From: Pseudomonadota bacterium
GTDB lineage: Bacteria; Pseudomonadota; Alphaproteobacteria; Sphingomonadales; SMXR01
Assembly: GCA_022566215.1 (NCBI GenBank)
Contig: JADFJJ010000010.1
Coordinates: forward strand, 1-51,265
Direction: 5' to 3'
DNA length: 51,265 nucleotides
Below are positions 2 through 16,197 of this stretch, piece by piece. Position 1 is the stretch's first letter. Every line of letters starts with the position of its first letter. Both the position numbers and the translations under genes were made by a program. The notes beneath the pieces are model-generated. The model did not search any database. It had not been told where the DNA came from and saw only the letters and a program-made list of their open reading frames with translations.

Positions 2-1267
2 ACCGGCGAGAACGGCGGCGCAGCGTTTGTCCTGATCTACCTGGGGTTCGTGTTTCTGATCGGGGTTCCGATCATCACCGCCGAGATTGCAATCGGCCGG
101 ATGGGAGCCTTAAGCCCGATCGGCGCGGTGCGCGCGATCATCAAACGCCAGAAATTGAGCCGTTTTTGGACCGCGATCGGTTACTTAAGCCTGGCGGTCC
201 CGTTCATGGGCTTGACCTATTACTCGGTGGTCGCCGGCTGGTCGCTGAATTATGCATCGAAAGCCGCTATGGAAGCCTTTTCAGGGCTTAACTCAGGGGG
301 CTCGCAATCTCTTTTTGGGGAGTTTGCCGCAAATCCCTGGGCCAATATATTGCTGCAGGGGTTTGTTATCATGTTCACCGCTTATGTGGTCGGCCGCGGG
401 CTTCGGGGGGGGATCGAGCGGGCCGCCAAGATTATGATGCCGGCGCTGTTTCTGATGCTGCTGATCTTGATCGTCTACGGTATGGTTGAGGGCAATTTCG
501 CCGAGGCCTTCACCTTCCTGTTCGCCCCGGATTTCAGCCAAATCACCCCGAAGGTGGCGATGATGGCCCTGGGCCAGGCGTTTTTCTCGGTCGGGGTCGG
601 GGTCGGTTTTATGATGACCTACGGCGCCTATTTGCCGAAGGAGACCAACATCCCGCGCTCCGCCGCGGCGATCGCCGGCATCGATACCGGGGTCGCGCTG
701 CTGGCCGGTCTGGCGATTTTCCCGATCGTTTTTGCATCCGGCCTCAGCCCGGCGGAAGGCCCGGGGCTGGTCTTTATCACCATGCCGGTGGCGTTCGGCG
801 CGATGCCCTTCGGGCAGATTTTGGGTACGCTGTTTTTTCTGCTGCTGTTCGTCGCCGCTTTTACCTCGACGATCGCGATGCTCGAGCCGATTATCAGCTA
901 TCTCGAGGAAAAATGGCCCGGGATAAGGCCCAGGCTCTCGTTCGCGGCGGCGGCGGTGATCTGGCTGGTGGGGATTCTGCCGGCGCTCTCGAACGGGGTT
1001 CTGGCGGACGTGCGGCCCTTCAGCTTGATCCCGGCGTTATCGGAAAAAGACATCTTCGGCGCCTTTGACTTTTTCGTCGCCTCGATCCTGATCCCGGTCA
1101 ACGCGCTGCTGATCGCGCTGTTCGCCGGCTGGGTGATCAAAACCACACGCTTCAGGGAAGAGCTTGCCTTCAAATCGGAATTTATGTTCCAGGTCTGGCG
1201 TCTGCTGCTGAAATTCATCGCGCCCCTCGCAGTCCTGGCGATTACCGTTTTCGGACTGATGGGGTAA
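2..1267 (+). CDS. Sodium-dependent transporter, NSS/SNF family (5' partial)
   Basis: The reading frame is open from the window edge, so the N-terminus (probably 35-45 residues, including most of the first membrane segment) is missing. The visible part starts with TGENGGAAF and continues through IPLITAEIAIGR-like sequence (here GVPIITAEIAIGRMG), which matches the TM1-TM2 region of neurotransmitter:sodium symporters of the LeuT type. About ten further hydrophobic segments follow. Family members couple Na+ entry to uptake of amino acids or related amines across the inner membrane; the substrate cannot be read from the sequence. The stop codon lies directly against a repeat that resembles the 3' end of the bicupin gene at 2416-3231. 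No operon partner is visible downstream. Family assignment is firm, substrate unknown. Confidence 0.9.
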   Translation, partial: TGENGGAAFVLIYLGFVFLIGVPIITAEIAIGRMGALSPIGAVRAIIKRQKLSRFWTAIGYLSLAVPFMGLTYYSVVAGWSLNYASKAAMEAFSGLNSGGSQSLFGEFAANPWANILLQGFVIMFTAYVVGRGLRGGIERAAKIMMPALFLMLLILIVYGMVEGNFAEAFTFLFAPDFSQITPKVAMMALGQAFFSVGVGVGFMMTYGAYLPKETNIPRSAAAIAGIDTGVALLAGLAIFPIVFASGLSPAEGPGLVFITMPVAFGAMPFGQILGTLFFLLLFVAAFTSTIAMLEPIISYLEEKWPGIRPRLSFAAAAVIWLVGILPALSNGVLADVRPFSLIPALSEKDIFGAFDFFVASILIPVNALLIALFAGWVIKTTRFREELAFKSEFMFQVWRLLLKFIAPLAVLAITVFGLMG

Positions 1268-1316
1268 TAATTCTCAGCCGGGCTGCCGGCGGGATAAAAG
1301 TGGCCGGCCACGCCGC
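1262..1316 (-). repeat. Repeat copy A, resembling the 3' tail of the bicupin gene
   Basis: Read on the minus strand this stretch encodes VAGHF-PAGSPAENY, nearly the same as the last residues of the bicupin encoded at 2416-3231 (VAGHFTPAGSPAENY). It sits at the very end of the symporter gene. Similar copies lie at 1792-1850 and at the bicupin end itself, all in the same orientation. It has no start codon or promoter of its own and is taken as a remnant or a recombination site. Confidence 0.7.
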
Positions 1317-1327
1317 ACAATCAAACC

Positions 1328-1699
1328 CTAACAAACGGCCAGGTAATAAAAAATATTGTCCCAATTTCGATTTGATAAGAATTCATTAAAAACAGTGGCA
1401 TTATAATATTCGTAATGTTGGTTACTTTCCCTGATTTGCTCCAGGAATTTCAATATTCCCTCGTGGTCGTAGTCCCAATGGAAACCTTCTTGCCAACACT
1501 CAAACACCGCCGGATCTGGATTTTCGCAATCAAAGGAGGTTCCTTCAACACGATTGGAATAGAGACAGAAAGGGTAAGTGATTTCCCCGTAAAGTTCCTG
1601 GAAAAGAGTCTGGGGAATATGCCTGGCTTGTGCTTCCACCCCAAGAAAAATCAAGGAAAGGACCGCATATCCAAGAAAAATATTTCGCTTTAGCAACAT
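1328..1699 (-). CDS. Small secreted protein of unknown function
   Basis: I do not recognise this 123-residue protein. The chosen start (position 1699) has a GGGG purine run about 9 bases upstream and begins with MLLKRN followed by a hydrophobic stretch ending in VEAQA, which looks like a signal peptide with an AQA cleavage site; a longer reading to 1783 would bury this signal. The mature part is acidic and aromatic-rich (many Tyr, Phe, Trp) with four cysteines, one at the extreme C-terminus, so it may form disulfides in the periplasm. Base composition is clearly more AT-rich than the flanking symporter and bicupin genes. It lies between repeat copies A and B, which suggests it arrived as an inserted piece. 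Confidence 0.5.
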   Translation of the reverse strand: MLLKRNIFLGYAVLSLIFLGVEAQARHIPQTLFQELYGEITYPFCLYSNRVEGTSFDCENPDPAVFECWQEGFHWDYDHEGILKFLEQIRESNQHYEYYNATVFNEFLSNRNWDNIFYYLAVC

Positions 1700-1791
1700 C
1701 AGAAGCCCCAAAGATACAAAACTTTTATCACAAAAACCGGTTTTGGGAAACTTCGAGGAAACGGACGCTGAAAAGCCAGGCATCCCCCCTC

Positions 1792-1850
1792 AATAATTCT
1801 CAGCCAAGCTTCCCGCTGGGGTGACAAAGAGGCGCCCGGCAACACGTAAA
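1792..1850 (-). repeat. Repeat copy B, resembling the 3' tail of the bicupin gene
   Basis: On the minus strand it reads RVAGRLFVTPAGSLAENY followed by TGA, an imperfect copy of the bicupin C-terminal tail including its stop codon and the G-rich bases just after it. It lies between two AT-rich small genes (1328-1699 and 1943-2350). The three copies are in direct orientation, spaced about 530 and 620 bases apart. Confidence 0.7.
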
Positions 1851-1942
1851 ACGTCTGCCTAAACCATCCCCCCTAAGCCCAAGAAAGGTAAAAAAAGCAA
1901 GAAAGTAAAATCTGTGGTAAGTTAATCTCTCAGGAGCTGCTT

Positions 1943-2350
1943 ATGCCTTATAAAATCACAAAACTGAAGGATGGCGGGGTCATCAATGAATTTGAAGGAA
2001 TAGTTACTCTCGAGAAAAACGCCGAAGTTGATATAAAAATTTTCGGCGAAGACCCGGCCCAATTCAAGAAAATTTCTTATGTGATTTCCGACTGGTCAAA
2101 AGCGACAAAGGTTACTCATACCACTGAAGAGCTTCGTGAGCTGGCCATAATGACCAGGCAAAGACTGGAATTTAATCCCGAATTGCTTTTTGCAATAATT
2201 GTTCCCAGGGATTTATTATATGGGCTTGCCAGAATGTGGCACACTTATTTGGGAGAAGCGCACAGGGCCGGGTTATTCAGGACCAGGGAAGAGGCGGAAA
2301 TTTGGATAAAAGAAAAATTATCTTTATCTAAAGAATCCCGGAAACCCTGA
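1943..2350 (+). CDS. Hypothetical protein, possible STAS/SpoIIAA-like fold
   Basis: This 135-residue protein begins with MPYKITKLKDGGVINEFEG, resembling the first strands of small STAS/SpoIIAA-like proteins, and contains a central stretch on Arg-Glu-rich helix residues (ELRELAIMTRQ) and a YGLARMWHTYLGE segment followed by FRTREEAEIWI near the C-terminus. That order (ligand-like YGLARM helix, then VFRTREEA-W) is seen in many uncharacterised bacterial proteins of this shape. A CAGGAG ribosome-binding site lies 7 bases before the ATG. It is lone, AT-rich compared with its neighbours and sits between repeat copies B and C. The fold is a guess from pattern; no function is assigned. Confidence 0.65.
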   Translation: MPYKITKLKDGGVINEFEGIVTLEKNAEVDIKIFGEDPAQFKKISYVISDWSKATKVTHTTEELRELAIMTRQRLEFNPELLFAIIVPRDLLYGLARMWHTYLGEAHRAGLFRTREEAEIWIKEKLSLSKESRKP

Positions 2351-2415: not shown

Positions 2416-3231
2416 TCAATAATTTTCCGCCGGTGATCCCGCCGGGGTGAAATGCCCGGCGACGCGGAGGCCGGATTTGCTGGTGCATTCCAGCGAGTGT
2501 TGCTGGCGTTTGGGCAGGAAGATAATGCTGCCCGCCTTGACCGCGCCCTGTTGATCTTCGGTCCACATCAAGCCTTCGCCAGACAGGACATAAAGCGCCT
2601 CTTCATAGAGGTGAAAGTGGCTTGGGGCCTTGCTTAAAGGGATTTCTCCGATGAACTGGGTGACTTGATCCGAGCCCACCCCCTTGGAGACCAGCACCTG
2701 GAAAAAACGATCCCCCATCGCCTCCTTCTTTGATGGATCGACCTCCACTACACGCTCCGGAAAGCCGCCATCGAAATTGTCCGGCATCTCCTCCAGAACC
2801 TTTGCCCCGTCCTCTTCCGGACAGACCGTGATCAGGATTCTTATTAAGGGATCACCCTCACCCTTCCCTCTCCCGTCAAGGGAGAGGGTATTCGATTTGG
2901 CGCCTTCCTGTACTTCCTCTCCCCTCGTGGGAGAGGATTGAGGTGAGGGGGTTATTTGAAACGCTTCGCCCGGGCGGATGTAAAGCCCGGATTGGGAAGG
3001 CATTTCGAAGACCTGGCCGGAGACGGTGACACTGGCCGAACCGGCCGCCGCGAACAGGATCACGTCACTATGCCCGAAGGCGTAAATGGGTGAGGGCGCG
3101 CCCAAAAGATCAAGCAGGTGCTGGCTCAGGTGTTGGGCGCCGGATTTGCGCCCGATCACGCACCTCAATTCCCCCGGCTTGCGCGCCCCGGGATCGAGGA
3201 TAAAACAGCCGCCCTTGAGGTCGGTTTTCAT
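2416..3231 (-). CDS. Bicupin protein with in-frame palindromic insert
   Basis: A 271-residue protein with two cupin domains. The N-terminal cupin (about residues 25-92) has no HxH motif and probably binds no metal. The C-terminal cupin (about 175-260) has H205-x-H207-xxx-E211 followed by SGEG and a later Q-Q-H-S, the usual set of four metal ligands. Residues about 93-127, rich in Ser, Pro, Gly and Arg, are encoded by a palindromic repeat at 2851-2954 and separate the two cupins without breaking the frame. Bicupins of this type include dioxygenases and ureidoglycine aminohydrolase-like enzymes. The gene is divergent from the tryptophan dioxygenase gene, so a role in aromatic catabolism is possible but not shown. 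Its 3' tail exists in two further copies to the left. Confidence 0.75.
   Translation of the reverse strand: MKTDLKGGCFILDPGARKPGELRCVIGRKSGAQHLSQHLLDLLGAPSPIYAFGHSDVILFAAAGSASVTVSGQVFEMPSQSGLYIRPGEAFQITPSPQSSPTRGEEVQEGAKSNTLSLDGRGKGEGDPLIRILITVCPEEDGAKVLEEMPDNFDGGFPERVVEVDPSKKEAMGDRFFQVLVSKGVGSDQVTQFIGEIPLSKAPSHFHLYEEALYVLSGEGLMWTEDQQGAVKAGSIIFLPKRQQHSLECTSKSGLRVAGHFTPAGSPAENY
2851..2954. repeat. Palindromic repeat element inside the bicupin gene
   Basis: A GC-rich element made of two perfect 9-bp stems: CCCTCTCCC/GGGAGAGGG at 2866-2874 and 2880-2888, and TCCTCTCCC/GGGAGAGGA at 2915-2923 and 2929-2937, each with a 5-base loop, enclosed by imperfect outer arms (ACCCTCACCC on the left, GGGTGAGG-like on the right). 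It resembles the dispersed CCCTCACCC...CTCTCCC palindromes found in many proteobacterial genomes. Only this copy is seen in the window. It is translated in frame as about 35 residues. Confidence 0.75.
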
Positions 3232-3322
3232 GCTTTTCCGCGTCCTCTTTTATGATATCCCTTTTACATTTCCATAACCGCCTGATAAGGGAAAAGCGCA
3301 AGCTAATCAATGGGAACAAAAA

Positions 3323-3404: not shown

Positions 3405-4244
3405 ATGACCGACAAAAAACAGCACATGAAATTCGAGGGCGAGAATATCCATTGGGATATGGACATGTCCTACGGCCAGTATTTGCATCTTGACCAGGTA
3501 CTGAGTGCGCAAAAACCCTTGTCCGGCGAGCATGACGAGATGCTGTTCATTATCATCCACCAGGCCTCGGAGCTGTGGATGAAGCTGTGCATCCATGAGC
3601 TCTTGTCGGCCACCGGGGATATCAGGAAGGACGATCTGGGGCCGTCGTTCAAGAAGCTCTCACGGGTCGCGCGGATCCAGACCCAGCTGTTGCAGTCGTG
3701 GGAGGTGCTGGCGACCATGACGCCCTTTGATTACATGAATTTCCGCGATGCCCTTGGCCGCTCATCAGGGTTCCAGTCCTACCAGTACCGCATCATCGAG
3801 TTTACGCTGGGCCACAAGGAAGAAAAGATGATCACCCTTTTTGAAGGCCAGCCCGAGATCAAGGCGGTCATGGAAAAGGCGCTGAAGACGCCCGGCATCT
3901 ACGATGAAACATTGAAACTGTTGCACCGGCGCGGGTTCGACATCCCGAAACAGCGCCTGGAGCGTGACTGGACGCAGAATTATGAAGCGCACAAGGGGGT
4001 TGAGGATGCCTGGTACAAAATCTACAACAACGCGGAGGAGTATTTCGATCTTTATGAACTGGCGGAAAAGCTGGTCGACCTGGAATACCGCCTGCAGCAG
4101 TGGCGCTTTACCCACCTGAAGACGGTCGAGCGGATCATCGGCGGCAAGCGCGGCACCGGCGGCACCAGCGGCATTGGCTATCTGGCCAAAGCGCTGTCCC
4201 ACACTTTCTTCCCGGAACTGTGGACGGTCCGCACCAGATTGTAG
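3405..4244 (+). CDS. kynA: Tryptophan 2,3-dioxygenase
   Basis: A 279-residue haem enzyme that opens the indole ring of L-tryptophan with O2 to give N-formylkynurenine, the first step of the kynurenine pathway. Diagnostic features are the SYGQYLHLDQVL opening, the IIHQASELWMK substrate-site motif, H237 in the WRFTHLKTVERIIG stretch (the expected haem ligand) and the GTGGTSG loop near the C-terminus. Length is normal for bacterial enzymes. The start at 3405 is preferred because GGGGACAG precedes it by 7 bases and because the family starts near this point; an upstream in-frame reading to 3252 lacks homology. Kynureninase starts 14 bases after the stop codon, so the two are surely co-transcribed. 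Confidence 0.95.
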   Translation: MTDKKQHMKFEGENIHWDMDMSYGQYLHLDQVLSAQKPLSGEHDEMLFIIIHQASELWMKLCIHELLSATGDIRKDDLGPSFKKLSRVARIQTQLLQSWEVLATMTPFDYMNFRDALGRSSGFQSYQYRIIEFTLGHKEEKMITLFEGQPEIKAVMEKALKTPGIYDETLKLLHRRGFDIPKQRLERDWTQNYEAHKGVEDAWYKIYNNAEEYFDLYELAEKLVDLEYRLQQWRFTHLKTVERIIGGKRGTGGTSGIGYLAKALSHTFFPELWTVRTRL

Positions 4245-4258
4245 CAATCCCCAGCCCG

Positions 4259-5449
4259 ATGAAAAAAATCACTCTAGAAAAGGTCCGGGAAATGGACAGG
4301 ATCGACCCCTTCCGCGGGAAACGGGAGGAATTTCTGTTGCCTGAAGGTATTATTTATCTCGATGGGAATTCGCTTGGCGCGCTGCCCAAAGCGGTTCGGC
4401 TGAGGATCCGCGATGTCACCGAGAACGAATGGGGCCAGAGCCTGATTGCCGGCTGGGACAAGCACGGCTGGGTCGCGCTGCCCGGCAAGGTCGGCGACAA
4501 GATCGCCCGGCTGATCGGCGCAAAACAGGGCGAAGTGGTGGTGACCGAAAGCACTTCCATCAATCTTTTCAAGGCGGTAACCGCGGCTCTTCAAGTAGGG
4601 CCGAAAAGGGGCACTATTCTGACAGAAAAGGGCAATTTTCCGGCCGATTTGTACGTTCTGGACGCGATTGCGCGCGAATCGGGAGGAAAGGTTAAGATCA
4701 AGCGGGTTCGGAGGGAGGATTTGATCGCTTCGCTGACCGATGAGATCGCCATCCTGTGCCTGACCCACGCCAATTATAAAACTTCTGTCCGGCATGACAT
4801 GGCGGCGCTGACCAGGCGCGCCCGGGAGGCCGGCGCCATGACCATCTGGGACCTGAGCCATTCGGCCGGTGCGCTGCCGGTGGATCTAAACGGCTGCGGC
4901 GCCGATTTCGCGATCGGCTGCGGCTACAAGTTCCTCAACGGCGGGCCCGGCGGATCGGGTTATATCTTTGTCGCTGCGCGTCATCAGAATAAAATCCTTC
5001 CCGCCCTGGCCGGCTGGATGGGGCATGTCCGCCCGTTCGATTTCTCATCGGATTACCAGCCGGTTTCCGGCATTGCCCGGCAGCTGACCGGAACCCCTTT
5101 CGTGATCGGCGCAGCCGCTCTGGACGCGGCCCTCGAGGTCTTTGACGGGGTCGATATGGAAGCGGTCGGCGAAAAGGCCGGAAAGCTCGGTGATCTTTTT
5201 ATCGGCCTGGTTGAAGCGGAATGCCCGGAGATGAAACTGGCCTGCCCCAGGGAGGCGACCGGGCGCACCAGCCAGGTGACCTTCACCTACCCGGAGGCGC
5301 AAAAAATTATGGCTGAGGTGGTCAAGCGCGGAGTGGTCGCCGATTTCCGCCCGCCCGATGTGATGCGCTTCGGGCTGGCGCCCTTGTATAACAGCTATGA
5401 AGACGTTTACAGGGCGGTCCTGACCCTGAAAGAAATCTTCAAGCAGTAA
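4259..5449 (+). CDS. kynU: Kynureninase
   Basis: A 396-residue PLP enzyme that cleaves L-kynurenine to anthranilate and L-alanine. The sequence shows IYLDGNSLGALPKAV near the N-terminus, the TESTSINLFK phosphate-binding region, the D-L-S-H-S-A-G stretch and the PLP lysine K224 in GCGYKFLNGGPGG. The C-terminus ends with the RFGLAPLYNSYEDVYRAV pattern typical of the family. The ATG at 4259 gives the usual N-terminus (MKKITLEKVREMD). It lies 14 bases after kynA, and the first TPR-sulfotransferase gene starts 5 bases after its stop. No kynurenine formamidase gene is present in the window, so that step must be encoded elsewhere. Confidence 0.95.
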   Translation: MKKITLEKVREMDRIDPFRGKREEFLLPEGIIYLDGNSLGALPKAVRLRIRDVTENEWGQSLIAGWDKHGWVALPGKVGDKIARLIGAKQGEVVVTESTSINLFKAVTAALQVGPKRGTILTEKGNFPADLYVLDAIARESGGKVKIKRVRREDLIASLTDEIAILCLTHANYKTSVRHDMAALTRRAREAGAMTIWDLSHSAGALPVDLNGCGADFAIGCGYKFLNGGPGGSGYIFVAARHQNKILPALAGWMGHVRPFDFSSDYQPVSGIARQLTGTPFVIGAAALDAALEVFDGVDMEAVGEKAGKLGDLFIGLVEAECPEMKLACPREATGRTSQVTFTYPEAQKIMAEVVKRGVVADFRPPDVMRFGLAPLYNSYEDVYRAVLTLKEIFKQ

Positions 5450-5454
5450 GCCCG

Positions 5455-7317
5455 ATGGCGAAAACAGCCCCAGATAAAGACCTTTTGAGCTACCAGAATG
5501 GCGGCCCGGATCTGGCCGCAGCCTGTCAACGGCTGGCGGCGGGCAGGCTGGCGGAAGGGGAGTTCGCAGCCGCTTTGCTGTTTGCCAAAAAGGCCAAGGG
5601 TTTAGGATGTGAGAGCGCCGATAATGATCTCAACATCGCCGAAAGTTTGGGCGCTTTGGACAAGTCAGAGGAAGCCGCCCGGCTGTGCCGTGATGTTCTT
5701 CAGGAGACCCCGGACAATCGCAGAGCGCACATGTTGCTGGGCTGGATGTTGATGGGGTGCAAGGATTTCAAGGCGGCGGCGGCATCCTTTCAGGCCGCGC
5801 TGGAGCTCGGCGTCGAAGACGGGGAGATCCTGGTTGACTTGGGCATTGCGCTGGAAGCAGACGGGGATGAAACCAGAGCCGGAAAGCACTTCGACCGGGC
5901 GAAAATTGACTATCCGGACCTGTTCGAGACACTGATGGACAAGGCCGACCGGTTGTTCAGCCGCCACCTCAACAAAGCCGCGCGGCAGGGGTTGCGCAAG
6001 GCGGAAAAGGTGGCGTTGAAAGACGCCCGTGCTTATTACGAAATGGGCCTGGCAAATTTTATCATGGGCTTCGCCAGAGAAGCGGAAAAACTTTTCCTGG
6101 CCTCATTAGGTCTGCGCCCGACGCTTGAGGCTTACCGCGAACTTTCCGGGTTATATGAAAAATCTAATAACCTGAATAAGGCTGAGAGCTTTGCCCGGGG
6201 AGCCTTGCAAAACGCACCGCAAGAGCCTTCGCTCAATCTGGTCATGGCCCATTGCGAACGCCGCAAGGGCGACCAGGAAGCGGCCTTGGTGCGCTACCGG
6301 AAAATCCTCGAGGTGACGGAATCCGATTCAATCCGCATTGAGGCCCTGAACCAGATCGGCCGGATCCTCGACACAAAAGGAGAGGTGGACGAGGCCTATG
6401 AAAACTTCGCTGCCGCCAAGGAACTGCTGAAGCTGGATGAAAGTTTTGCCACCATCGATATCAAGGCCCAGCACCAGAAAATCCGCGCCATGACGGCCAT
6501 GGACTGGAGCGGGAAACCCCACTCACCGCCGCCGATGGAGGTTGGGTTCGCGCCCAAACAGCTGGTCTTTTTTATCGGGTTTCCGCGTTCCGGAACGACC
6601 CTGATCCAGGAGATTTTGAGCGGTCACCCGAAGGTGGTGGTAACCGCCGAGGAGCGGATCCTGCGCAAGGTGGTCGACATGATGTTAGAGTTTGAAGGTG
6701 GCTACATGGCCTCGCTTGCGGCGCTGACGCCAGACCTGATCAGGGATTTAAGGGCGCTATATATTTACCAGGCCAACACTTTTGCCAGCTTTGACGAGAC
6801 CACCACTCTGGTGGATAAACTGCCGCTCAATCTGATGCAGCTGCCGCTGATCCTGACCCTGTTTCCAGAGGCTAAAATCATCTTCGCCCTGCGCCACCCG
6901 AAGGCCAGTGTCTTAAGTTGCCTGATGCAGAACTTCCGCCTCAATAATGCCATGGTCAACATAACCGGCCTGGATGAAATCACGACCTTTTATGCCCTGG
7001 TCATGGGAATGTGGGAAAAAATCTCCGGCGAGAGAGATATCCCTTTTTATTACCTCCGTTACGAGGATGTGGTCAGGGATATGGAAGGTGAGATAAAAAA
7101 ACTAACCAAATTCCTGGGCCTTCCATGGGCGCCGGAAATGCTGGATTACGCTAAAAGCGCTCGCGCCAAGGGCATGATTAACACTCCCAGCTATCACCAG
7201 GTAGTCCAGCCGGTTTATACTGAATCGGTGGAAAAATGGCGCGCCTATGAAAAATATTTCGAGCCCTATAACGACCGGCTTGAACCTTTTTGTGAATTTT
7301 TTGGTTATTCCGGTTGA
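5455..7317 (+). CDS. TPR-sulfotransferase fusion protein 1
   Basis: A 620-residue protein with tetratricopeptide repeats in about residues 20-310 and a PAPS-dependent sulfotransferase domain (Sulfotransfer_3 type) in about 365-615. The 5'-phosphosulfate loop is intact: FFIGFPRSGTTL with F376-T382. The KLPLNLMQLPLI and FALRHP segments that bind the 3'-phosphate are also present, as is the C-terminal INTPSYHQV signature. No signal peptide is seen, so it should be cytoplasmic, with the TPR part probably presenting a protein or carrier-bound substrate. It starts 5 bases after kynU and is therefore in the kyn operon. It heads an array of four paralogues. The acceptor is unknown. Confidence 0.88.
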   Translation: MAKTAPDKDLLSYQNGGPDLAAACQRLAAGRLAEGEFAAALLFAKKAKGLGCESADNDLNIAESLGALDKSEEAARLCRDVLQETPDNRRAHMLLGWMLMGCKDFKAAAASFQAALELGVEDGEILVDLGIALEADGDETRAGKHFDRAKIDYPDLFETLMDKADRLFSRHLNKAARQGLRKAEKVALKDARAYYEMGLANFIMGFAREAEKLFLASLGLRPTLEAYRELSGLYEKSNNLNKAESFARGALQNAPQEPSLNLVMAHCERRKGDQEAALVRYRKILEVTESDSIRIEALNQIGRILDTKGEVDEAYENFAAAKELLKLDESFATIDIKAQHQKIRAMTAMDWSGKPHSPPPMEVGFAPKQLVFFIGFPRSGTTLIQEILSGHPKVVVTAEERILRKVVDMMLEFEGGYMASLAALTPDLIRDLRALYIYQANTFASFDETTTLVDKLPLNLMQLPLILTLFPEAKIIFALRHPKASVLSCLMQNFRLNNAMVNITGLDEITTFYALVMGMWEKISGERDIPFYYLRYEDVVRDMEGEIKKLTKFLGLPWAPEMLDYAKSARAKGMINTPSYHQVVQPVYTESVEKWRAYEKYFEPYNDRLEPFCEFFGYSG

Positions 7318-7392
7318 CTTTAAGCCGGGTTTTCCTAAAAACCTGAAGCGCCGGGAATGGCAGGAGACCGACCCTCTTACCTGAGAAAAGAC

Positions 7393-9354
7393 ATGACCAA
7401 AACCGCCCCCAAACCGGAATTATCCACCCTCCTGGAAGAGGGTCTTGGCCATATTGCCGACGGCCGGCGGGATAAGGCTGGCCAGTGCTTTGAAAACATC
7501 ATAAAAGCGGGCGCCGGGGCCGGGTCTTTGAACCAGCGGGACAAACCCCTGATCGCCCAGGCCCACAACCAGCTGGGAATCGCAGCGCTGGCCGGCGGTA
7601 TGTTTCATGAGGCTTTGCGGCATTTTGAAGCAGCCCGCGAAATCACCGGGTTTGATCCCAGCCAGGAGCTCAACCGCGGCCTGGCGCTGATCAACCTGGG
7701 ACGTCTGGAGGAAGCCGAAGGGGTTCTGAGCGGGGTGCTGGAAAAAAACCCGGACGGCTATCAGGCTGCCTTCCACCTGGGGAAGATATACCTGAAACAG
7801 GGCCGGGCGGAAAAAGCGGCGCTCTATCTGGAGCAGGCGGCCAAGGCCGCGCCGCCGCGGGTAGAGGCCTTTCTGGAACTTGGCATGAGCCTGGAGCTCA
7901 GTGGCAAAAAACCCGAAGCGGCAAAGCAGTTTGAGACCGTGCGCGAGATGAGTCCCGATCTGTACCAGGATTACTATAAAAAGGCCGAAGGCCTGAAAGA
8001 AAACCATCACTACCCGGATGCTTATGAGGCTTTGATCCGCGCCAGCAAAATCCTCCCCGATAATCCCATCCCGCACCATATGGTGGCGATTTTTTTCCAG
8101 GACCTGGGGGAAAAAGACCAGGCGGAGGAATTTTTGAAAAAATCTCTGGCGTTGCACCCAACCCCGGAAAGCTATGGCCAGCTGGCCTCCCTCTATGAGA
8201 AATCCAACGCCCTGAACAATGCCTGGGCGACCGCCAATACCGGCCTGCAATTGTTTCCCGACGATGCCTATTTGCAGCTGACCCTGGCCAAGTGCGAACG
8301 CCGCGCGAAGAAATTCGGCCAGGCGCTGGAACGCCTTCAAGGGCTGGAAGGGAAAACCAGTGACAGGATCGTAAGGACCCAGATGCATTTCCTGATCGGC
8401 TTGCTTTACGACCAGCAGGACGAAATTGACAGCGCCTTCAGCTATTATTCCAAGGCCAAAAAAGAAGCCGCGGCAAACCTCGGTAAAAGCGATGCAGACA
8501 AGGAAATCTCGCTTCAGTACATCAGGGACATGAGCCAACTGGATTTATCCAAACTTCCCCGGGCCAAGCCCCCCAAAAGACCCGGCGGCCCCGCCGGGCT
8601 GGCCTTTCTGGTCGGGTTTCCGCGTTCCGGCACCACGCTTTTGAACCAGATCCTCGACAGCCATCCCAAGCTGGTGGGGCTTGAGGAAAAGCCCACCATC
8701 CCGGGACCGGCCGCTTTGCTGCAGCAAATGGCGGCGGGCTACCCCAAGGCGCTGGAAGGCCTGAGTGAAGACCTGGCCGAAAATTTGCGGGAGGCCTATT
8801 ATCAGCGCATTGACAGCTTTGCCGACTATGATGAAAACAGCATCGTGATTGACAAACTGCCGCTCAACCTGATCCACCTTCCCCTGATCTGGGCGATGTT
8901 CCCGGAGGCCAAGATCATCATGGCGCTTCGTCATCCGCTGGGATGCTCTTTAAGCTGTTTTATGCATAACTTCCGGCTCAACAATGCCATGGCCAATATG
9001 TTCACGCTGGAAGACATTACCTCGTTTTATGCCAGGGTCATGGACCTGTGGCGGCATTTCACATCCACCCGGGAATTTCCTCACCATCTCATCAAATACG
9101 AAGACCTGGTCACCGATATCCGGGGCGAAGCGGAGAAAATTTGCTCATTTCTGGGGGTAGAATGGTCTGATGAAATGCTGAAATACGCCCAGCACGCCCG
9201 GGCCAAGGGCCTGATCAACACCCCCAGCTATCACCAGGTTATTCAGCCCCTTTATTCAGACTCACTTGAACGCTGGCGCCGCTATGAAAAATATCTGGAG
9301 CCTTACAAGGAGCGGCTGGCGCCCTATTGTGATATGTTTGGCTACCGGCTTTAA
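7393..9354 (+). CDS. TPR-sulfotransferase fusion protein 2
   Basis: Second paralogue of the array, 653 residues from the ATG at 7393 (an upstream in-frame ATG at 7357 would add 12 residues). TPR units fill about residues 15-340; the sulfotransferase domain follows, with an intact FLVGFPRSGTTLLNQIL loop (F409-T415), DKLPLNLIHLPLI, MALRHPLGCSLSCFMHNF and the C-terminal INTPSYHQVIQPLY signature. It shares with paralogues 1, 3 and 4 a CERR or LERR motif in the last TPR unit. The gap to paralogue 1 is 75 bases without an obvious terminator, so it is probably in the same transcript. A soluble, PAPS-using enzyme is expected; the target is unknown. Confidence 0.88.
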   Translation: MTKTAPKPELSTLLEEGLGHIADGRRDKAGQCFENIIKAGAGAGSLNQRDKPLIAQAHNQLGIAALAGGMFHEALRHFEAAREITGFDPSQELNRGLALINLGRLEEAEGVLSGVLEKNPDGYQAAFHLGKIYLKQGRAEKAALYLEQAAKAAPPRVEAFLELGMSLELSGKKPEAAKQFETVREMSPDLYQDYYKKAEGLKENHHYPDAYEALIRASKILPDNPIPHHMVAIFFQDLGEKDQAEEFLKKSLALHPTPESYGQLASLYEKSNALNNAWATANTGLQLFPDDAYLQLTLAKCERRAKKFGQALERLQGLEGKTSDRIVRTQMHFLIGLLYDQQDEIDSAFSYYSKAKKEAAANLGKSDADKEISLQYIRDMSQLDLSKLPRAKPPKRPGGPAGLAFLVGFPRSGTTLLNQILDSHPKLVGLEEKPTIPGPAALLQQMAAGYPKALEGLSEDLAENLREAYYQRIDSFADYDENSIVIDKLPLNLIHLPLIWAMFPEAKIIMALRHPLGCSLSCFMHNFRLNNAMANMFTLEDITSFYARVMDLWRHFTSTREFPHHLIKYEDLVTDIRGEAEKICSFLGVEWSDEMLKYAQHARAKGLINTPSYHQVIQPLYSDSLERWRRYEKYLEPYKERLAPYCDMFGYRL

Positions 9355-9367
9355 GGGTTCCTGAATT

Positions 9368-11020
9368 ATGATCCAGTCATCTGATGAAACACCGGCCGCC
9401 CTGCTCAACAGGGGAATTGAAATGGGCGAGAAGGGCGAGCTGGACAAAGCGGCGGAGCTTATGACGGCGGCCGCCAAGGACCAGAACTATGATTTTCTGA
9501 TCCGGGCCGGAGCTGCCCTGGAAGGCATCAAACGGTTCGGTAAAGCCCAGAAAATTTACAGCCGGGCAATGAAACTGAAGCCCGGAAATTTTCTTACCTA
9601 TTCAAGGCTGGGGGCGCTGTTTGCCGAGCTGGAGGATTTTCCGCTGGCGGTTAAGAACCTGGAAAAGGCGGTCGAGTTGAATCCCGGGGAAGGGGACCTT
9701 TACTATAATCTGGCGCTTGTTTATCAATCGCTCTCGGAAAATGACAAGGCCATCAAGGCGCTTGAGGCGGCCCTGGAGAAAGGCGCCCGGGCCTTTACGG
9801 TGTATGGGACGCTGGCCAGGATATACGAGCAGTCCAACCAGATCGGCAAACTGGAAGAGGTTCTGGAGGCCGGCCTGAAAGAATGTCCGGACGACCCGTT
9901 CCTGAATTTCAATTCCGCGGTTCTGGAGCGCCGCCGTGACAATCCCGAAAAAGCCTTGCAACGGCTTGAAGCCTGTCTTAATTCCGCAACATTGAAAAAA
10001 CCCGGGGAAGAATTCCAGGAGCTCGAGGATATGGAACTGCTGGCCAGTTTTGAGCTTGGCCGCAACTACGACAAATTGGGCGAATATGACAAGGCCTTCG
10101 GCCATTTTGCCAAAGCCAACCGGCTGGCCGCAAAAATCCCCTCCCGCAACCCGCCCCGGAAAGAACAAGCCCTCGCCAATATCACCGGGCTGCGCCAGCT
10201 GGATTATACCAACTGGCAGAACCTGACCGCCGACCCGCTGGAAAATTCAAATCTGACCCCGGTCTTCCTGGTCGGTTTTCCACGCTCTGGAACCACCCTT
10301 TTGCACCAGATCCTGGATGGCCATTCTAACCTGGAAGCGCTGGAGGAGCAGCCCCTGCTGGCGGCTTTAACCGAGTACATCAGCACCCAGAAGGGCGGTT
10401 TTCCCGCCGGCTTGAAGGATCTGGACAAGGCCGGCCTGAACCAACTTCGTGACAGCTATATGAAGGGATTAAATAACCTGCAAACCAAACCGGGGAAGAT
10501 CAGGATGGTCGACAAGCTGCCGATGAATATTATCAAGGCGCCGCTGATCGTGAAACTTTTCCCGGAGGCGAAATTTATCCTGGCGCTGCGCCATCCGTGC
10601 GATTGCACACTGAGCTGCTTCATGCAGAATTTCGACCTCAATCACGCGATGATGAATTTCCTCAGCCTTGAAGACGCCACCCATTATTACCGCGAGACCT
10701 TTTCGCTGTGGCTCAAATACCGCCGTGAAATGGATCTCGATGTCCACATGGTCCGTTACGAGGACGTGGTGGAGAACCTTGAGCGGGAAGCCCGCGCGGT
10801 TATATCGTTCCTGGGGATGGAATGGCAGGACCAGGTTTTGGATTACCGCCAGCAGGCCAGGGAAAAAAAGCGCATCAACACCCCCAGCTATCACCAGGTC
10901 ATCAAACCGATTTACCAGCACGCCAGGGGCCGCTGGCAGCGCTATCAAAAGCATCTGGACCCGTTCCTGGAAAGACTTGCCCCCTACATTGAGGAATTTG
11001 GCTATGGCGATCAGGATTAG
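9368..11020 (+). CDS. TPR-sulfotransferase fusion protein 3
   Basis: Third and shortest paralogue, 550 residues, with fewer TPR units (about residues 10-250) before the sulfotransferase domain. The PAPS loop is intact (FLVGFPRSGTTLLHQIL, F304-T310), as are DKLPMNIIKAPLI, LALRHPCDCTLSCFMQNF and INTPSYHQVIKPIY. It begins 13 bases after paralogue 2. Compared with the first two, the acceptor-side residues between these motifs differ more, which could mean a different substrate. The protein has no signal peptide and should act in the cytoplasm. Confidence 0.88.
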   Translation: MIQSSDETPAALLNRGIEMGEKGELDKAAELMTAAAKDQNYDFLIRAGAALEGIKRFGKAQKIYSRAMKLKPGNFLTYSRLGALFAELEDFPLAVKNLEKAVELNPGEGDLYYNLALVYQSLSENDKAIKALEAALEKGARAFTVYGTLARIYEQSNQIGKLEEVLEAGLKECPDDPFLNFNSAVLERRRDNPEKALQRLEACLNSATLKKPGEEFQELEDMELLASFELGRNYDKLGEYDKAFGHFAKANRLAAKIPSRNPPRKEQALANITGLRQLDYTNWQNLTADPLENSNLTPVFLVGFPRSGTTLLHQILDGHSNLEALEEQPLLAALTEYISTQKGGFPAGLKDLDKAGLNQLRDSYMKGLNNLQTKPGKIRMVDKLPMNIIKAPLIVKLFPEAKFILALRHPCDCTLSCFMQNFDLNHAMMNFLSLEDATHYYRETFSLWLKYRREMDLDVHMVRYEDVVENLEREARAVISFLGMEWQDQVLDYRQQAREKKRINTPSYHQVIKPIYQHARGRWQRYQKHLDPFLERLAPYIEEFGYGDQD

Positions 11021-11075: not shown

Positions 11076-13052
11076 ATGAACAACCAGACCAACATAAAGA
11101 GCGTGGTCCAGCTTCTCAACCAGGCGGTTTCCCACCACCAGGCCGGCGAGAAGAAGGAGGCCGAGGCGAAATACAATGAAACCCTCTCGCACGAACCGGA
11201 CTTCCGGGCGCTGCTGGCCAGCAACCAGCAAGCGGTCCGGGAAAGCCAAACTCTGCTCAGGACTGTTTTCTCCCAGGCCTACAACAATCTCGGGGTTTTC
11301 CGGGAAGAGGAAAAAAACTACGGCCAAGCGATCAGCAGTTTCCGCCATGCCCTGGATCATGCCCCCGGCAGCGTTGAGGCCCACACCAATCTGGCGCGGG
11401 TTTTCCGCAAACGGCGCAACCTTGAAAAAGCTCTCGCCTCAGCCCGGGCGGCGTTAGAGCTGAAACCCGAATACATCCCCGCAATCATACAACTGAGCAA
11501 GATTTGCTATGCCCTGAGGCGTCCCGATGAGGCGATCGAGGCGGTGATGAAAGTCACCCCGTGGCTGGAAAAACACACCCGCCTGAACATTGAGTACGGA
11601 CGCTTGCTGGAAAAAACCGGACAGCTGGTAGAAGCCAGGGAAAGGTTCCACAAGGCGCTCAGCCTGGAGCCCGGCCATATCCTCGCTCTCTTAAGTCTCG
11701 GCGGCGTCAATTTCAAGCTCGACAAATACGGCGAGGCGCTGGAAAATTACCAGGCGATCCTGAAGATTGACCCGGAAAACATCCTGGCGACCACCAACGT
11801 CGGCTTTATCATGCAAAGGATGGGGCAGTTTGGCGAGGCCATGAACGCTTACAAGGCCTCGCTTTCCCTTGATCCCGGCCATCTGGAAACCCTGAGCCTT
11901 TACGGCTCGCTGTTAGAGATGACCGGCAAGTATGATCAAGGCCTGGCCATTTCCCAACAGGTTCTAGCGATGCCCAAGCTGGAGGACCGGCCCTATTACA
12001 CCGCGCACATAACCAAGGCCAGATGCGAACGTCGCCTGGGCCGCACCATCGAAGCGCTTGAAACCCTGAAAACCCTGCTGGGCGGCCCGGTCGGGGTGGC
12101 CGAAAGAAGCCGGATCTATTACGAGTTCGGCCTGGCCCATGACAGCCTTGACCAGACCGAAGAAGCGTTCCGCTATTTCAAAAAGGCCAACAGCTTGTTT
12201 CTGGAACAGGGGTCTGCCTTCGAGGCGGCAAAAAACGACCTGCCGGATTTTATCAGCACTATGCAAAAGAGCGATTTGTCGACCCTTCAGGAGAGCCCCT
12301 ACAGTTTGAAAACAGAGGGTCAGGAGGCCCCGGTTTTCATCGTCGGTTTTGTTATCGGCGGGGTCCAGGTGGTCAGCGCCTTTTTATCCCAAGTGCCGGA
12401 GTTTCAGATTCTCGAAGATTCAACCCTGATTATCGGGCTGCGGCGCAGCATCAGCAAAGACCAGCAATATCCGGAATGTCTGCTGAAAATGTCCGCGGAT
12501 GAGGCGCGCGCCTGGGCCGGGCAGTATCACAAGCTGAAGAACGGTAATTCACCCGAAACCGGAAGCGGGATTTCGATTAACACCCACCCCCTGAATTTCC
12601 TGGATTTACCCCTGATCCTGAAATTGTTCCCGGACGCCAAGGTCATATTCGCCATGATCCATCCGCTCGATGCGGTTTTGAATTGCTACATGAAGGATTT
12701 CGTCCCGAACCCGGCCACCATGAACTTTGCCGATTTTAAGGACATTTCAGAAATTTACGCCGCCAGCATGGAAGTGTGGGAAAAATACAAGTCCGAACTG
12801 TCTTTTGATTATATCGAACTGAAAGTGGAAAACCTGCTGGCCAGGCCGCGCCGGGAAATCAAAAAGGTGCTGAATTTTATCGACCCTGAAAACAAAACCG
12901 GGGCCCGGAAAGTGCTTGATAAAGCCGCCTGCGCGGAGATTGCGGGGAATTTATTTGAGCGCTATCCCAGCGGCCGCTGGATCCGCTATAAAAAGCACTT
13001 GAAGGCGGCAAGTAAACGCCTCGCCCTCACTATCAAAAAATACGGCTATTAG
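11076..13052 (+). CDS. TPR protein with degenerate sulfotransferase domain (paralogue 4)
   Basis: A 658-residue paralogue with the best-formed TPR region of the four (about residues 60-400, many canonical units such as ALNNLG/AYNNLG and LDPGHLETL). The C-terminal domain still aligns with the sulfotransferase fold, but the catalytic elements are gone: FPRSGTT has become FVIGGVQ (F425 onward), DKLPLN has become NTHPLN, LRHP has become MIHP, and the INTPSYHQV signature is lost. The frame is intact over the full length and the hydrophobic core pattern (LDLPLILKLFPDAKVIFAM) is kept, so this looks like a selected pseudoenzyme rather than a decaying gene. It follows paralogue 3 after 55 bases. A scaffold or regulatory role for the active paralogues is a guess. 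Confidence 0.82.
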   Translation: MNNQTNIKSVVQLLNQAVSHHQAGEKKEAEAKYNETLSHEPDFRALLASNQQAVRESQTLLRTVFSQAYNNLGVFREEEKNYGQAISSFRHALDHAPGSVEAHTNLARVFRKRRNLEKALASARAALELKPEYIPAIIQLSKICYALRRPDEAIEAVMKVTPWLEKHTRLNIEYGRLLEKTGQLVEARERFHKALSLEPGHILALLSLGGVNFKLDKYGEALENYQAILKIDPENILATTNVGFIMQRMGQFGEAMNAYKASLSLDPGHLETLSLYGSLLEMTGKYDQGLAISQQVLAMPKLEDRPYYTAHITKARCERRLGRTIEALETLKTLLGGPVGVAERSRIYYEFGLAHDSLDQTEEAFRYFKKANSLFLEQGSAFEAAKNDLPDFISTMQKSDLSTLQESPYSLKTEGQEAPVFIVGFVIGGVQVVSAFLSQVPEFQILEDSTLIIGLRRSISKDQQYPECLLKMSADEARAWAGQYHKLKNGNSPETGSGISINTHPLNFLDLPLILKLFPDAKVIFAMIHPLDAVLNCYMKDFVPNPATMNFADFKDISEIYAASMEVWEKYKSELSFDYIELKVENLLARPRREIKKVLNFIDPENKTGARKVLDKAACAEIAGNLFERYPSGRWIRYKKHLKAASKRLALTIKKYGY

Positions 13053-13066
13053 AGGGTCTTTGGGAA

Positions 13067-14563
13067 TCAGGCCGCCCAACCACCCTTTTTTTTCAATTCA
13101 TCGCCGATTTCCTTTAACGCCTGCGCCAGCACCTCGAAATCTTCGCGCCTGCTGCGGTGGTTGACGATCGCAGCTCTCAGGCAGAACCTGCCGTCCAGGG
13201 TGGTCGCCGAGGGCACCGCGATGCCCCGGTTCTGGATCTCGATCAACAGCAGCCGGTTGAGGTTATCGAGGTCGTTTTCACTCAGCCCGCCGGGATTGTA
13301 CCGGAAGGCGACGACGTTCAGGCCGACCGGGGCCAACAGCTCCAGGCTTCCGCTGCCCTCGATCAGGCTTCCCAGATATGCCGCCTGGGCGACATTTTGC
13401 TCGAACAGGGCCTTGAATTTCTCCAGCCCCTGGGTTTTCATCGAAAACCAGAACGCCAGCGCGCGGAAGCGCCGGGAATGCTCGATGCCGATATCGTTAA
13501 AGGTCATCGGTCCGTTGGAGACCCCGCCCGCCAGCGGCCGGAAATAGTTAGCTTCGAACGAGAATGCATCGCTCAAGGCCTGTGCCGATTTGACCAGCAC
13601 ACAGCCCAGCCCATAGGGCTGGTACAGCCACTTGTGCAGATCAAAGGCGATCGAATCGGCTAACGGAAGACCCTTCAGCCGGGGCCGGAGTTTGTCTGAA
13701 AAATAGGCCACCGCGCCAAACGCGCCATCGACATGGAACCACATATTGTGCGCCCTGGCGATTTCCGCCAGCTCCTCCAGCGGGTCGACCGCCCCGGTGT
13801 TGACGGTGCCGGCGTTGCCGACAATCACCATCGGCGTAAAGCCCGCGGTTTTGTCGGCTACAATTTGTTTTTTCAGCGCTTTCAGGTCGATGGTGAAATC
13901 ATCGCAGACCGGGATCGCCCGGTAGGCCTTCTTGCCGAACCCCAGCAGATCCACCGATTTGGTAATACAATAGTGCGTTTCCGTGGAGCCATAGATGGTG
14001 TAGCGCCCGGCCTTATTCGAGGACAGGCCCTCGCTCCTGACGTCGAACCCGGCCTTGGCGGTTCTGGCGGTCTGCAGCGCGGTCAGGTTGGCCATGGTGC
14101 CGCCGCTGACCAGGATGCCGCCGGCACGGGAAGGGAAATCAAACAGCTCGCGGAACCAGCCGATGACCTGCATTTCGACCCACACCGGCGCCTGGTCATG
14201 GCCGGTCAGGTTGCTGTTCATGGTCGCCGCCAGCATCTCGGCGACGATCCCCTCGGGCGTGCCGGAGCCGTTGACCCAACCCCAATGCCGGGGGTGGATA
14301 TTGCCCAGCGGGTAGGGAAAAATGTTTTGCTGGAACTCGCCGAAGACCTCTTCGACCGGTTTGCCATCTTGGGGAACCGGGGTGCTGAGCGCCTCCATTG
14401 CCGCTTTCGGCATGGGCTGCCAGGGGGGGCGGCCGCGCACCCCTTCGATATAGTCGATCGAGCGGTCCAAAGCGTCATGGGCGAAACGGCGAAAAGCTGC
14501 CCAATCCTCAGGATCGAGGGTAATTTCAAGGCCGGGTTTTGTGCCGGATGGGGCTTTGGTCAT
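13067..14563 (-). CDS. PLP-dependent group II amino-acid decarboxylase (aromatic type)
   Basis: A 498-residue PLP enzyme of the aromatic-L-amino-acid decarboxylase family. It shows the IHPRHWGWVNGSGTP substrate region, GGTMANLTALQTAR phosphate-binding motif, VGNAGTVNTGAVDPL, WFHVDGAFGA and the PLP lysine K311 in DLHKWLYQPYG. Members decarboxylate tryptophan, tyrosine, phenylalanine or related acids to amines, and some act as aldehyde synthases; the exact substrate is not readable. The ATG at 14563 is preferred over an upstream extension to 15109, since the family starts here and the extension would run antisense through the next gene. It converges on the TPR-sulfotransferase array with only 14 bases between stop codons. 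Confidence 0.87.
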   Translation of the reverse strand: MTKAPSGTKPGLEITLDPEDWAAFRRFAHDALDRSIDYIEGVRGRPPWQPMPKAAMEALSTPVPQDGKPVEEVFGEFQQNIFPYPLGNIHPRHWGWVNGSGTPEGIVAEMLAATMNSNLTGHDQAPVWVEMQVIGWFRELFDFPSRAGGILVSGGTMANLTALQTARTAKAGFDVRSEGLSSNKAGRYTIYGSTETHYCITKSVDLLGFGKKAYRAIPVCDDFTIDLKALKKQIVADKTAGFTPMVIVGNAGTVNTGAVDPLEELAEIARAHNMWFHVDGAFGAVAYFSDKLRPRLKGLPLADSIAFDLHKWLYQPYGLGCVLVKSAQALSDAFSFEANYFRPLAGGVSNGPMTFNDIGIEHSRRFRALAFWFSMKTQGLEKFKALFEQNVAQAAYLGSLIEGSGSLELLAPVGLNVVAFRYNPGGLSENDLDNLNRLLLIEIQNRGIAVPSATTLDGRFCLRAAIVNHRSRREDFEVLAQALKEIGDELKKKGGWAA

Positions 14564-14728: not shown

Positions 14729-15523
14729 ATGACACTGGAGATGCGCTTTACCGCACTGGTGCTGGCCGGCGACCGGGCCAGGGATGATCCCCTGGCCGGG
14801 ACCTTTCCGGGCCGCAAAGCGCTTCTCGATATCAACGGCCGGCCGATGATCAGCTACGTTCTGGATGCGGTGGAAGGGGCGCAGGCGGTGAGCGACGTTT
14901 ATGTGGTCGCCAACCAGGTCAAGGATATCGAACAGGGCCTGATCAAGTGCGGGCGCGACGTCAAGCGAACCCGGTTCCTGGAGGGCGGGGTCTCGCCGGT
15001 GAACAGTGTCCTGAAAACCGTCGAAACGCTCAAACCGGCGTTTCCGGTGCTGGTGCTGACCGCCGACAACCCGCTTTTGACCCCGAAAGCGATCGATGAT
15101 TTTTGCCATCAGGCGCGGGCCGAAGAGGGGGCCGATGTCGCCTTTGCGCTGGCCGAGATGAGCCGCCTTCGGGCCGAATTCCCGGGCGGGCGCAGGACTT
15201 TCGTCAAACTGAAGGGCGAGGGCTATTCCGGCTGCAACCTTTATGCGCTGCTGAACCTGAAAGCCCTCAACGCCGCCCGCTTCTGGCTCAAGGTAGAGGC
15301 CGACCGCAAGAAAACCTTCGCCATGGTCGCCGGTTTCGGGTTCGGCACCCTGATCCGCGTCATAACCCGGACCATTACCCTGGAAGAGGCCCTGGTCAGG
15401 GCCTCGAAGGTGCTGGGCGCGGTGGTCCGCCCGGTGCTGGTGGAGGAGGTTCGGATCGCCATTGACGTCGACCGGGTGAAGCAGGCCGAGCTGGTCCGGA
15501 ATATCTTGAAAAAAGAAGCCTGA
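14729..15523 (+). CDS. MobA-like nucleotidyltransferase
   Basis: A 264-residue protein starting with FTALVLAGDRARDDPLA and KALLDINGRPMISYVL, the Rossmann-like nucleotide-binding start of NTP transferases (LAGG-R...K pattern), with a TADNPLL motif near residue 112 that supplies a metal-binding Asp. Such enzymes transfer a nucleotidyl group to sugars, polyols or cofactors. The gene starts 165 bases from the divergent decarboxylase and is followed after 5 bases by a HAD phosphatase, which suggests a joint small-molecule pathway, for example attaching a head group to a phosphorylated alcohol. The substrate is unknown. Confidence 0.75.
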   Translation: MTLEMRFTALVLAGDRARDDPLAGTFPGRKALLDINGRPMISYVLDAVEGAQAVSDVYVVANQVKDIEQGLIKCGRDVKRTRFLEGGVSPVNSVLKTVETLKPAFPVLVLTADNPLLTPKAIDDFCHQARAEEGADVAFALAEMSRLRAEFPGGRRTFVKLKGEGYSGCNLYALLNLKALNAARFWLKVEADRKKTFAMVAGFGFGTLIRVITRTITLEEALVRASKVLGAVVRPVLVEEVRIAIDVDRVKQAELVRNILKKEA

Positions 15524-15528
15524 ACATC

Positions 15529-16197
15529 ATGGCCAAAGGCAAAAAACCCGAAACGATCGTTATTTTCGACCTTGACCGGACGCTCACCAGGAGCGGTACC
15601 TTTACCCCTTACCTGTTGAACCTGGCGGGCGAGGAACCGGCCAAGTACCTGTACGTCTTCGCGGTGCTGTTTCGGATGGCGCTTTATGTGCTGGGGGTGA
15701 TCTCGCGGAAACAACTGAAGGAATATATGCTCCACGCCTTCATGGCCGGGATGAGCCGGAGCGAGGCGGACAAACAGTCAAAGGATTTTTATAACAAGCT
15801 GTTCAGAAAAGGGTTTCACCAGGACGGCCTGGCGGCCCTGGAAGCGCACCGGAAAAAGGGCCACTTGGTCGGGGTCGCCACCGCGGCGATGGATTTTTAT
15901 GTCGAGCGGATCGTCAAGGAACTGGGCCTCGATTTCATGATCGCCACCACTTCGGTATGGGAGAAAAGGGTGCTTATCCCGGTCATCAAGGGCGAGAACT
16001 GCTATGGCGCCGAGAAGGCCCGGCGGGTCCGGGAATTCCTGGCGGCAAGGAAATACGGCGAGGTGTGGTTCTATTCCGACCATCACAGCGATGCGCCGGC
16101 CTTCCGGCTGGCCGATATAAAGGTTGCGGTCAACCCGACACATAAGCTAAAAAAGCTGGCCCGGGCCGGGGGCTTTCAAATCGAACACTGGAGATAG
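15529..16197 (+). CDS. HAD-IB family phosphatase (SerB-like)
   Basis: A 222-residue HAD hydrolase. Motif I is IVIFDLDRTLTR (DxDxT with the nucleophilic Asp), motif II is the VGVATAA stretch, motif III Lys is in YGAEKARRVREF, and motif IV is YSDHHSDAPAF. The helical cap between residues 30 and 100 is the C1-type cap of the phosphoserine phosphatase subgroup. Family members remove phosphate from serine-phosphate or other small alcohol phosphates. It lies 5 bases after the nucleotidyltransferase gene and 9 bases before the M14 carboxypeptidase gene, so the three form one transcript. Confidence 0.82.
   Translation: MAKGKKPETIVIFDLDRTLTRSGTFTPYLLNLAGEEPAKYLYVFAVLFRMALYVLGVISRKQLKEYMLHAFMAGMSRSEADKQSKDFYNKLFRKGFHQDGLAALEAHRKKGHLVGVATAAMDFYVERIVKELGLDFMIATTSVWEKRVLIPVIKGENCYGAEKARRVREFLAARKYGEVWFYSDHHSDAPAFRLADIKVAVNPTHKLKKLARAGGFQIEHWR

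Follow-up and report, generated by a model that had tools for sequence, protein, structure and literature searches.

The window, by which we mean the whole 51,265-nucleotide stretch of DNA analysed, carries genes for a tryptophan 2,3-dioxygenase and a kynureninase, followed by an array of four genes, W1 to W4. W4, the last gene of the array, is the subject of this analysis. The following features were assigned in and next to the array:

3405-4244, forward strand: tryptophan 2,3-dioxygenase (TIGR03036, 393.5 bits at a cut-off of 390.7; PF03301); the mechanical open reading frame starts at 3252.
4259-5449, forward strand: kynureninase, first gene upstream of the W1-W4 array (TIGR01814, 301.3 bits at a cut-off of 246.4).
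5455-7317, forward strand: W1, TPR plus Sulfotransfer_3, PAPS motifs complete (Pfam, motif alignment).
7357-9354, forward strand: W2, TPR plus Sulfotransfer_3, PAPS motifs complete (Pfam, motif alignment; 90% identical orthologue in G001).
9368-11020, forward strand: W3, TPR plus Sulfotransfer_3, PAPS motifs complete (Pfam, motifs, sequence match to human TPST2, 3ap1).
11076-13052, forward strand: W4, predicted TPR superhelix plus pseudo-sulfotransferase (658-aa open reading frame, Pfam, motif alignment, AlphaFold, codon maximum likelihood).
13067-14500, reverse strand: PLP-dependent decarboxylase, convergent with W4 (PF00282).
14729-15523, forward strand: MobA-like NTP transferase, the downstream edge of the site (PF12804).
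15529-16197, forward strand: HAD-IB hydrolase, in the same block as the MobA-like gene (TIGR01490).

The dioxygenase, kynureninase, W1, W2, W3 and W4 genes all lie on the same strand and are separated, in this order, by gaps of 14, 5, 39, 13 and 55 bp. A promoter and terminator scan gave counts not above those obtained with shuffles (7 versus 5.8 and 20 versus 20.1). The decarboxylase has a 95% identical counterpart at the same place in the congener G001, and in two genomes of other genera (G003 and G006) this place is occupied by a CDP-alcohol phosphotransferase. The genome from which the window derives (G000, 1.9 Mb) yielded 18 Sulfotransfer_3 matches, 16 of which are TPR-linked and were compared. 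Two more tandem arrays were found in it, one of five (G000:C56, L056) and one of four (G000:C91, L057) TPR-sulfotransferases, in which the 5'-PSB arginine and the DK lysine are present.

As stated in the first-pass annotation, the frame of W4 is unbroken. It forms one open reading frame of 658 codons, and a purine-rich stretch resembling a ribosome-binding site is located immediately 5' of its ATG. The strong TPR units described there were also recovered, with an E value for TPR_2 of 1.1e-38 and the highest TPR score among W1 to W4. The Sulfotransfer_3 (PF13469) score of W4 is 53.3 bits, which exceeds the Pfam cut-off of 27 bits, compared to 115.3 bits for W1, 121.1 bits for W2 and 125.3 bits for W3. 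Within W4, the following parts were distinguished, all on the forward strand:

11076-12305: TPR half, residues 1-410 (Pfam, same-site comparison, AlphaFold model).
12306-13049: degenerate sulfotransferase half, residues 411-658 (motifs; omega 0.25).
12348-12368: former 5'-PSB loop, FVIGGVQ in place of FPRSGTT, residues 425-431 (motif alignment).
12579-12596: former DKLPxN, now NTHPLN, residues 502-507 (motif alignment).
12654-12692: former 3'-PB region LRHP...LSC, now MIHP (residues 527-530)...LNC (residues 535-537) (motif alignment).
12915-12941: former INTPSYHQV loop, now LDKAACAEI, residues 614-622 (motif alignment).

Every motif change listed in the first-pass annotation (FPRSGTT to FVIGGVQ, DKLPLN to NTHPLN, LRHP to MIHP and the loss of INTPSYHQV) is thus present in the alignment. 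W4 lacks the arginine and both threonines of the 5'-PSB, the lysine of the DK motif, which belongs to the PAPS site, the arginine of the RH motif, the serine of the 3'-PB and the TPSYHQV loop. The acidic pair at the position of the catalytic base, EE in W3 and in human TPST2, reads ED in W4 (residues 447-448), and the RWxxY motif is intact (residues 634-638). The 5'-PSB of the G001 orthologue is FVVGGVQA with a valine at the arginine position, and a basic residue is found in neither W4 nor this orthologue. The names of the functional motifs (5'-PSB, 3'-PB etc.) follow excerpts of PMC6637879 and PMC9372746.

The window's genome and its relatives gave 61 domain matches, of which 54 full-length sulfotransferase domains scoring more than 150 bits were compared; the other seven, weaker or partial, were set aside. 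Four of the 54 have lost both the 5'-PSB arginine and the DK lysine. These are W4, its G001 orthologue, a homologue in G003 and an unrelated gene of G005 (L143). Among the 16 TPR-sulfotransferases compared from the window's own genome, W4 is the only one without both residues. An assembly artefact was rejected as the source of the degeneracy, as the same degenerate motifs occur in a second genome (G001); the degenerate homologue in G003, an independent assembly, also counters it.

The unrelated gene of G005 (G005:C155:2500-6500, 746-2236, reverse strand) is a second pseudo-sulfotransferase with TPR and Sulfotransfer_3 (103.3 bits), in which LPGAGTPY and DVNASN replace the PAPS motifs. The same genome carries a tandem pair (L139 on G005:C74; 1269-2969 and 2962-4668, forward strand) with a 5'-PSB of PSSG instead of PRSG, and the first gene of this pair is also devoid of the TPSxxQV loop.

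In its overall layout, W4 resembles the TPR-linked Sulfotransfer_3 proteins of the W1-W3 type, with a single Sulfotransfer_3 domain behind a TPR array and membership in the same locus clade, but it differs from them in the absence of the arginine, lysine and serine of the PAPS site and of the C-terminal TPSYHQV loop. The alignment of the W3 domain with human TPST2 (3ap1; E 1.1e-13) covers its full length, and PRSGTT, EE, SxxQV, the lysine, the arginine and the serine of the 3'-PB all match. In contrast, no PDB chain matched the W4 domain with an E value better than 0.1, and no sulfotransferase was among its matches. In titles and the opening parts of abstracts, no description of a bacterial pseudo-sulfotransferase was found.

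Structure prediction had been proposed as a check and was performed with AlphaFold2, with models built from seven sequences. The model of W4 has a mean pLDDT of 81.6 and a pTM of 0.68, those for W3 being 81.0 and 0.73. The sulfotransferase halves of both models show the same order of 14 helices and strands; confidence in this half of W4 is middling, with pLDDT means of 42-92 over blocks of 10 residues. A helix begins at residue 427 of the W4 model, inside the former PRSGTT loop (residues 425-431), compared to residue 309 in the W3 model, after PRSG (residues 305-308). Since the helix starts within the former 5'-PSB loop, the model suggests that the phosphate loop is gone in W4. Pseudoenzymes are recognised by lost catalytic residues and a kept order of the fold, and W4 displays this combination, the latter in the AlphaFold models of W4 and W3.

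A fold search with the W4 model returned TPR domains as best matches, led by O-GlcNAc transferase (OGT; 1w3b, 6eou) with a Z score of 20.8, an rmsd of 5.2 and 343 aligned residues. No sulfotransferase chain is among the matches listed, which concern the TPR part. At position 6 of helix A, N71 and N105 are identical in all six same-site proteins and N241 in five of the six. In OGT, an excerpt of PMC5967971 ascribes a role in substrate recognition to the ladder of asparagines at this position. OGT has another catalytic domain, however, and the ladder is partial in W4, so that we speak of a resemblance only. TPR scaffolds readily match any TPR protein, and the OGT likeness of the W4 model is therefore weak evidence of function.

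Selection on W4 was assessed with the orthologue from G001. Orthologues in this congener share 90% (W2), 91% (W3) and 87% (W4) identity with the genes of the window. The W4 orthologue is split by a contig end near residue 45-50, but both pieces were found and it is full length where readable. Over 609 aligned W4 codons of G000 and G001, zero frame breaks and zero indels were observed. For the sulfotransferase half of W4, the NG86 method yielded an omega of 0.239 for this pair (95% bootstrap interval 0.138-0.388). Codon maximum likelihood gave 0.253 for W4, 0.156 for W2 and 0.203 for W3, each from a single G000-G001 orthologue pair. The value for W4 is clearly different from 1 (2dL 23.7), and a separate omega for W4 versus W2 and W3 did not improve the fit (2dL 1.2). 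The TPR halves showed values of 0.316 (W4), 0.254 (W2) and 0.396 (W3). Residues 501-560 of W4, which span the former active-site strands, are 95% identical between the two congeners. In the tree of the sulfotransferase domains, the stem of the W4 pair is long (2.58), and the tip distance between G000 and G001 is 0.11, compared to 0.11 for W2 and 0.09 for W3. For this one orthologue pair, W4 thus displays a past burst of change and ordinary constraint now.

As the omega of 0.25 for the sulfotransferase half is indistinguishable from that of the motif-complete W2 and W3, W4 is not a decaying copy but is maintained by purifying selection, a result that applies to the one orthologue pair compared. 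Decay was rejected for this pair by both the NG86 bootstrap and the codon likelihood, and the dN/dS comparison suggested in the first-pass annotation accordingly gave no sign of relaxed selection. The view that W4 is a relic, with a decaying sulfotransferase half in a gene that persists by chance, could draw on the three genera without the domain and the one congener without the gene (see below), as well as on the point estimate of omega, which is higher for W4 than for W2 and W3. Against it stand both likelihood comparisons, the absence of any frame break or indel, tip rates equal to those of the paralogues and the unbroken degenerate homologue in G003. We regard it as already largely refuted and quite improbable. 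The proposal that W4 lost catalysis while its fold stayed intact under selection was upheld, given an omega like that of W2 and W3 within error, a full-length orthologue and the retained order of 14 elements.

The comparison of the site included eight genomes of the same family, and the region around the MobA-like gene was at least partly readable in six besides G000. In G001, W2, W3 and W4 are followed by the decarboxylase, the MobA-like gene and the HAD gene, and kynureninase is absent from the assembly. The site of G003 comprises dioxygenase, arylformamidase, kynureninase, a TPR gene with a degenerate sulfotransferase (open frame of 632 aa), CDP-alcohol phosphotransferase, MobA-like gene and HAD gene. 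G006 features dioxygenase, kynureninase, a TPR-only gene, CDP-alcohol phosphotransferase, MobA-like gene and HAD gene. The order is kynureninase, TPR-only gene, MobA-like gene and HAD gene in G007, and kynureninase, TPR-only gene and MobA-like gene in G005. The TPR-only counterparts in G005, G006 and G007 lack the sulfotransferase half, and no sulfotransferase gene adjoins them. In G004, the kynureninase ends 172 bp from a contig end. The congener G002 (L054, L109) has a W3-like, motif-complete gene flanked by dioxygenase and kynureninase, and no gene at the W4 site. Its kynureninase is separated from the MobA-like gene by a gene-free stretch of about 390 bp, as read from two contigs overlapping in the kynureninase.

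The first-pass annotation had named truncated orthologues as evidence against its reading. This applies to G005-G007, where the sulfotransferase domain is cleanly absent, but the TPR half is kept in all three. A TPR gene lies no more than 1.5 kb from kynureninase at six of seven loci in the family of W4 and at none of 23 loci in other families. Of the 118 genomes searched, 89 gave a kynureninase match, and these 30 loci are the best-scoring ones. A literature search returned no paper joining kynureninase, tetratricopeptide and operon.

With its TPR half, W4 scored 148 bits against the same-site gene of G003, 127 against that of G007, 107 against that of G006 and 96 against that of G005. The values for its array neighbours are 30 (W1), 69 (W2) and 50 bits (W3). 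By position and bit scores, W4 rather than W1-W3 is the counterpart of the gene that immediately follows kynureninase in four other genera, because the flanks (kynureninase upstream, MobA-like gene downstream) are shared and the TPR scores are highest. In a tree based on TPR sequences only, 12 genes of the locus form one clade (support 100/99), apart from 15 other TPR-sulfotransferases. This places W4 in a locus-specific clade of putative TPR-sulfotransferases at the kynureninase site.

Within this clade, W4 pairs with the G003 gene (98/93) and the TPR-only genes of G005-G007 cluster together (96/90). The split of W4 and G003 from the rest of the clade (the G005-G007 genes, W1-W3 and the G002 gene) is weak (87/72). 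In the tree of the sulfotransferase domains, a 99/95 split has the genes of the locus on one side, together with G003 and a single distant sequence. W4 and G003, both long branches, do not group in this tree; W4 instead joins another long branch, L034 (89/73). A single origin of the degeneracy in W4 and G003 is supported by the TPR tree, but the sulfotransferase-domain tree does not demonstrate it. The relationship between W4 and the G003 gene is firm in the TPR tree, while the trees do not place all six same-site genes in a single clade of their own.

These results bear on the role for which W4 has been kept. The first-pass annotation had suggested, as an example, a subunit that exerts control over the three active enzymes or recruits substrates. 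On this view, W4 would be a regulatory or recruiting pseudo-subunit that pairs with W1-W3 and feeds or tunes them, as in TPST2 dimers or with a dead deoxyhypusine synthase. The operon-like arrangement on the same strand with gaps of 5-55 bp is consistent with such a role, and W2, W3 and W4 have all been kept in G001. Precedents are known from excerpts of two papers: a catalytically dead deoxyhypusine synthase paralogue of trypanosomatids, which lies alongside live ones as W4 does, activates its partner (PMC3663545), and TPST2 works as a functional dimer (PMC6637879). Counterparts of W4, however, also occur where no live sulfotransferase partner was detected. A search of G003 (99% complete) for the two Pfam families Sulfotransfer_3 and Sulfotransfer_1 returned the degenerate gene itself, as a Sulfotransfer_3 match, and no other gene. 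No sulfotransferase adjoins the TPR-only genes of G005-G007, and G002 has a W3-like enzyme next to an empty W4 site.

As G003 keeps its pseudo-sulfotransferase with no other sulfotransferase detected by the two families, such a partner would not be needed across the family, and control of three active enzymes is therefore unsupported as an ancestral role. We consider the pairing with W1-W3 unlikely as the general explanation; within this genus only, W4 may have been co-opted to work with W1-W3. APS kinase was not found in G003, G004 or G005, and G006 gave a partial match of 22 bits only. Its absence in G003 was dropped as an argument from PAPS supply, as G005 and G006 hold motif-complete sulfotransferases without a full match either.

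Another explanation is that the old PAPS cleft now binds a different ligand, such as a tryptophan or kynurenine metabolite, and that W4 is a sensor or a different enzyme. Such a pocket would fit the high identity of residues 501-560 between the congeners, the acidic pair kept at the base position and the location of W4 next to the genes for tryptophan dioxygenase and kynureninase. However, G005-G007 manage without the domain, and folding constraints alone could account for the identity at residues 501-560. A re-purposed pocket is very unlikely in our estimation.

Taken together, we favour, with a probability of about 0.58, the reading that W4 is an old, selected pseudo-sulfotransferase in which the TPR superhelix is the conserved, functional part and forms a scaffold for binding, associated with the tryptophan-to-kynurenine operon and not engaged in sulfation. 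The same-site comparison shows that the predicted superhelix is the part common to all counterparts, which in other genera carry a degenerate sulfotransferase half or none. Judging from its motifs, W4 would not transfer sulfate. By analogy to OGT, the inner face of its superhelix may bind a partner protein or a peptide in extended form via the conserved asparagines, and W4 could act as a scaffold or adaptor, either for the tryptophan and kynurenine enzymes encoded next to it or for a product of the downstream block. The pseudo-sulfotransferase half of W4 and of the G003 protein would then have no catalytic function and serve for capping or dimerisation, and G005-G007 do without it. Besides the weak OGT likeness, the middling model confidence and the trees described above, the following findings run counter to the scaffold reading: the congener G002 has no gene at this site behind kynureninase, so that the W4 gene is dispensable, and W4 keeps the acidic pair of the catalytic base in the form of ED.

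A more far-reaching proposal is that the peptide-binding superhelix of a kynurenine operon protein specific to this family was released from sulfotransferase catalysis stepwise, with motif-complete, pseudo- and domain-free forms in living genera, and that the cleft was reused for sensing or binding ligands of the tryptophan-kynurenine pathway; we regard this as doubtful. At one chromosomal site and within one family, a series from TPR-sulfotransferase via pseudo-sulfotransferase to bare TPR protein can be read, with selection measured on the dead domain. TPR-sulfotransferases are numerous in this lineage, as illustrated by the 16 compared from a genome of 1.9 Mb; a substrate tested for any of them was not found in the present analysis. 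The TPR half of W4 offers a bait for superhelix ligands without catalytic turnover.

Upstream of the operon, the start of an open reading frame on the reverse strand (898-1320; window positions 1260-1320, ...AGHFYPAGSPAENY) duplicates the C-terminus of the cupin protein encoded at 2416-3231 (...AGHFTPAGSPAENY), as if part of another cupin copy had been left there.
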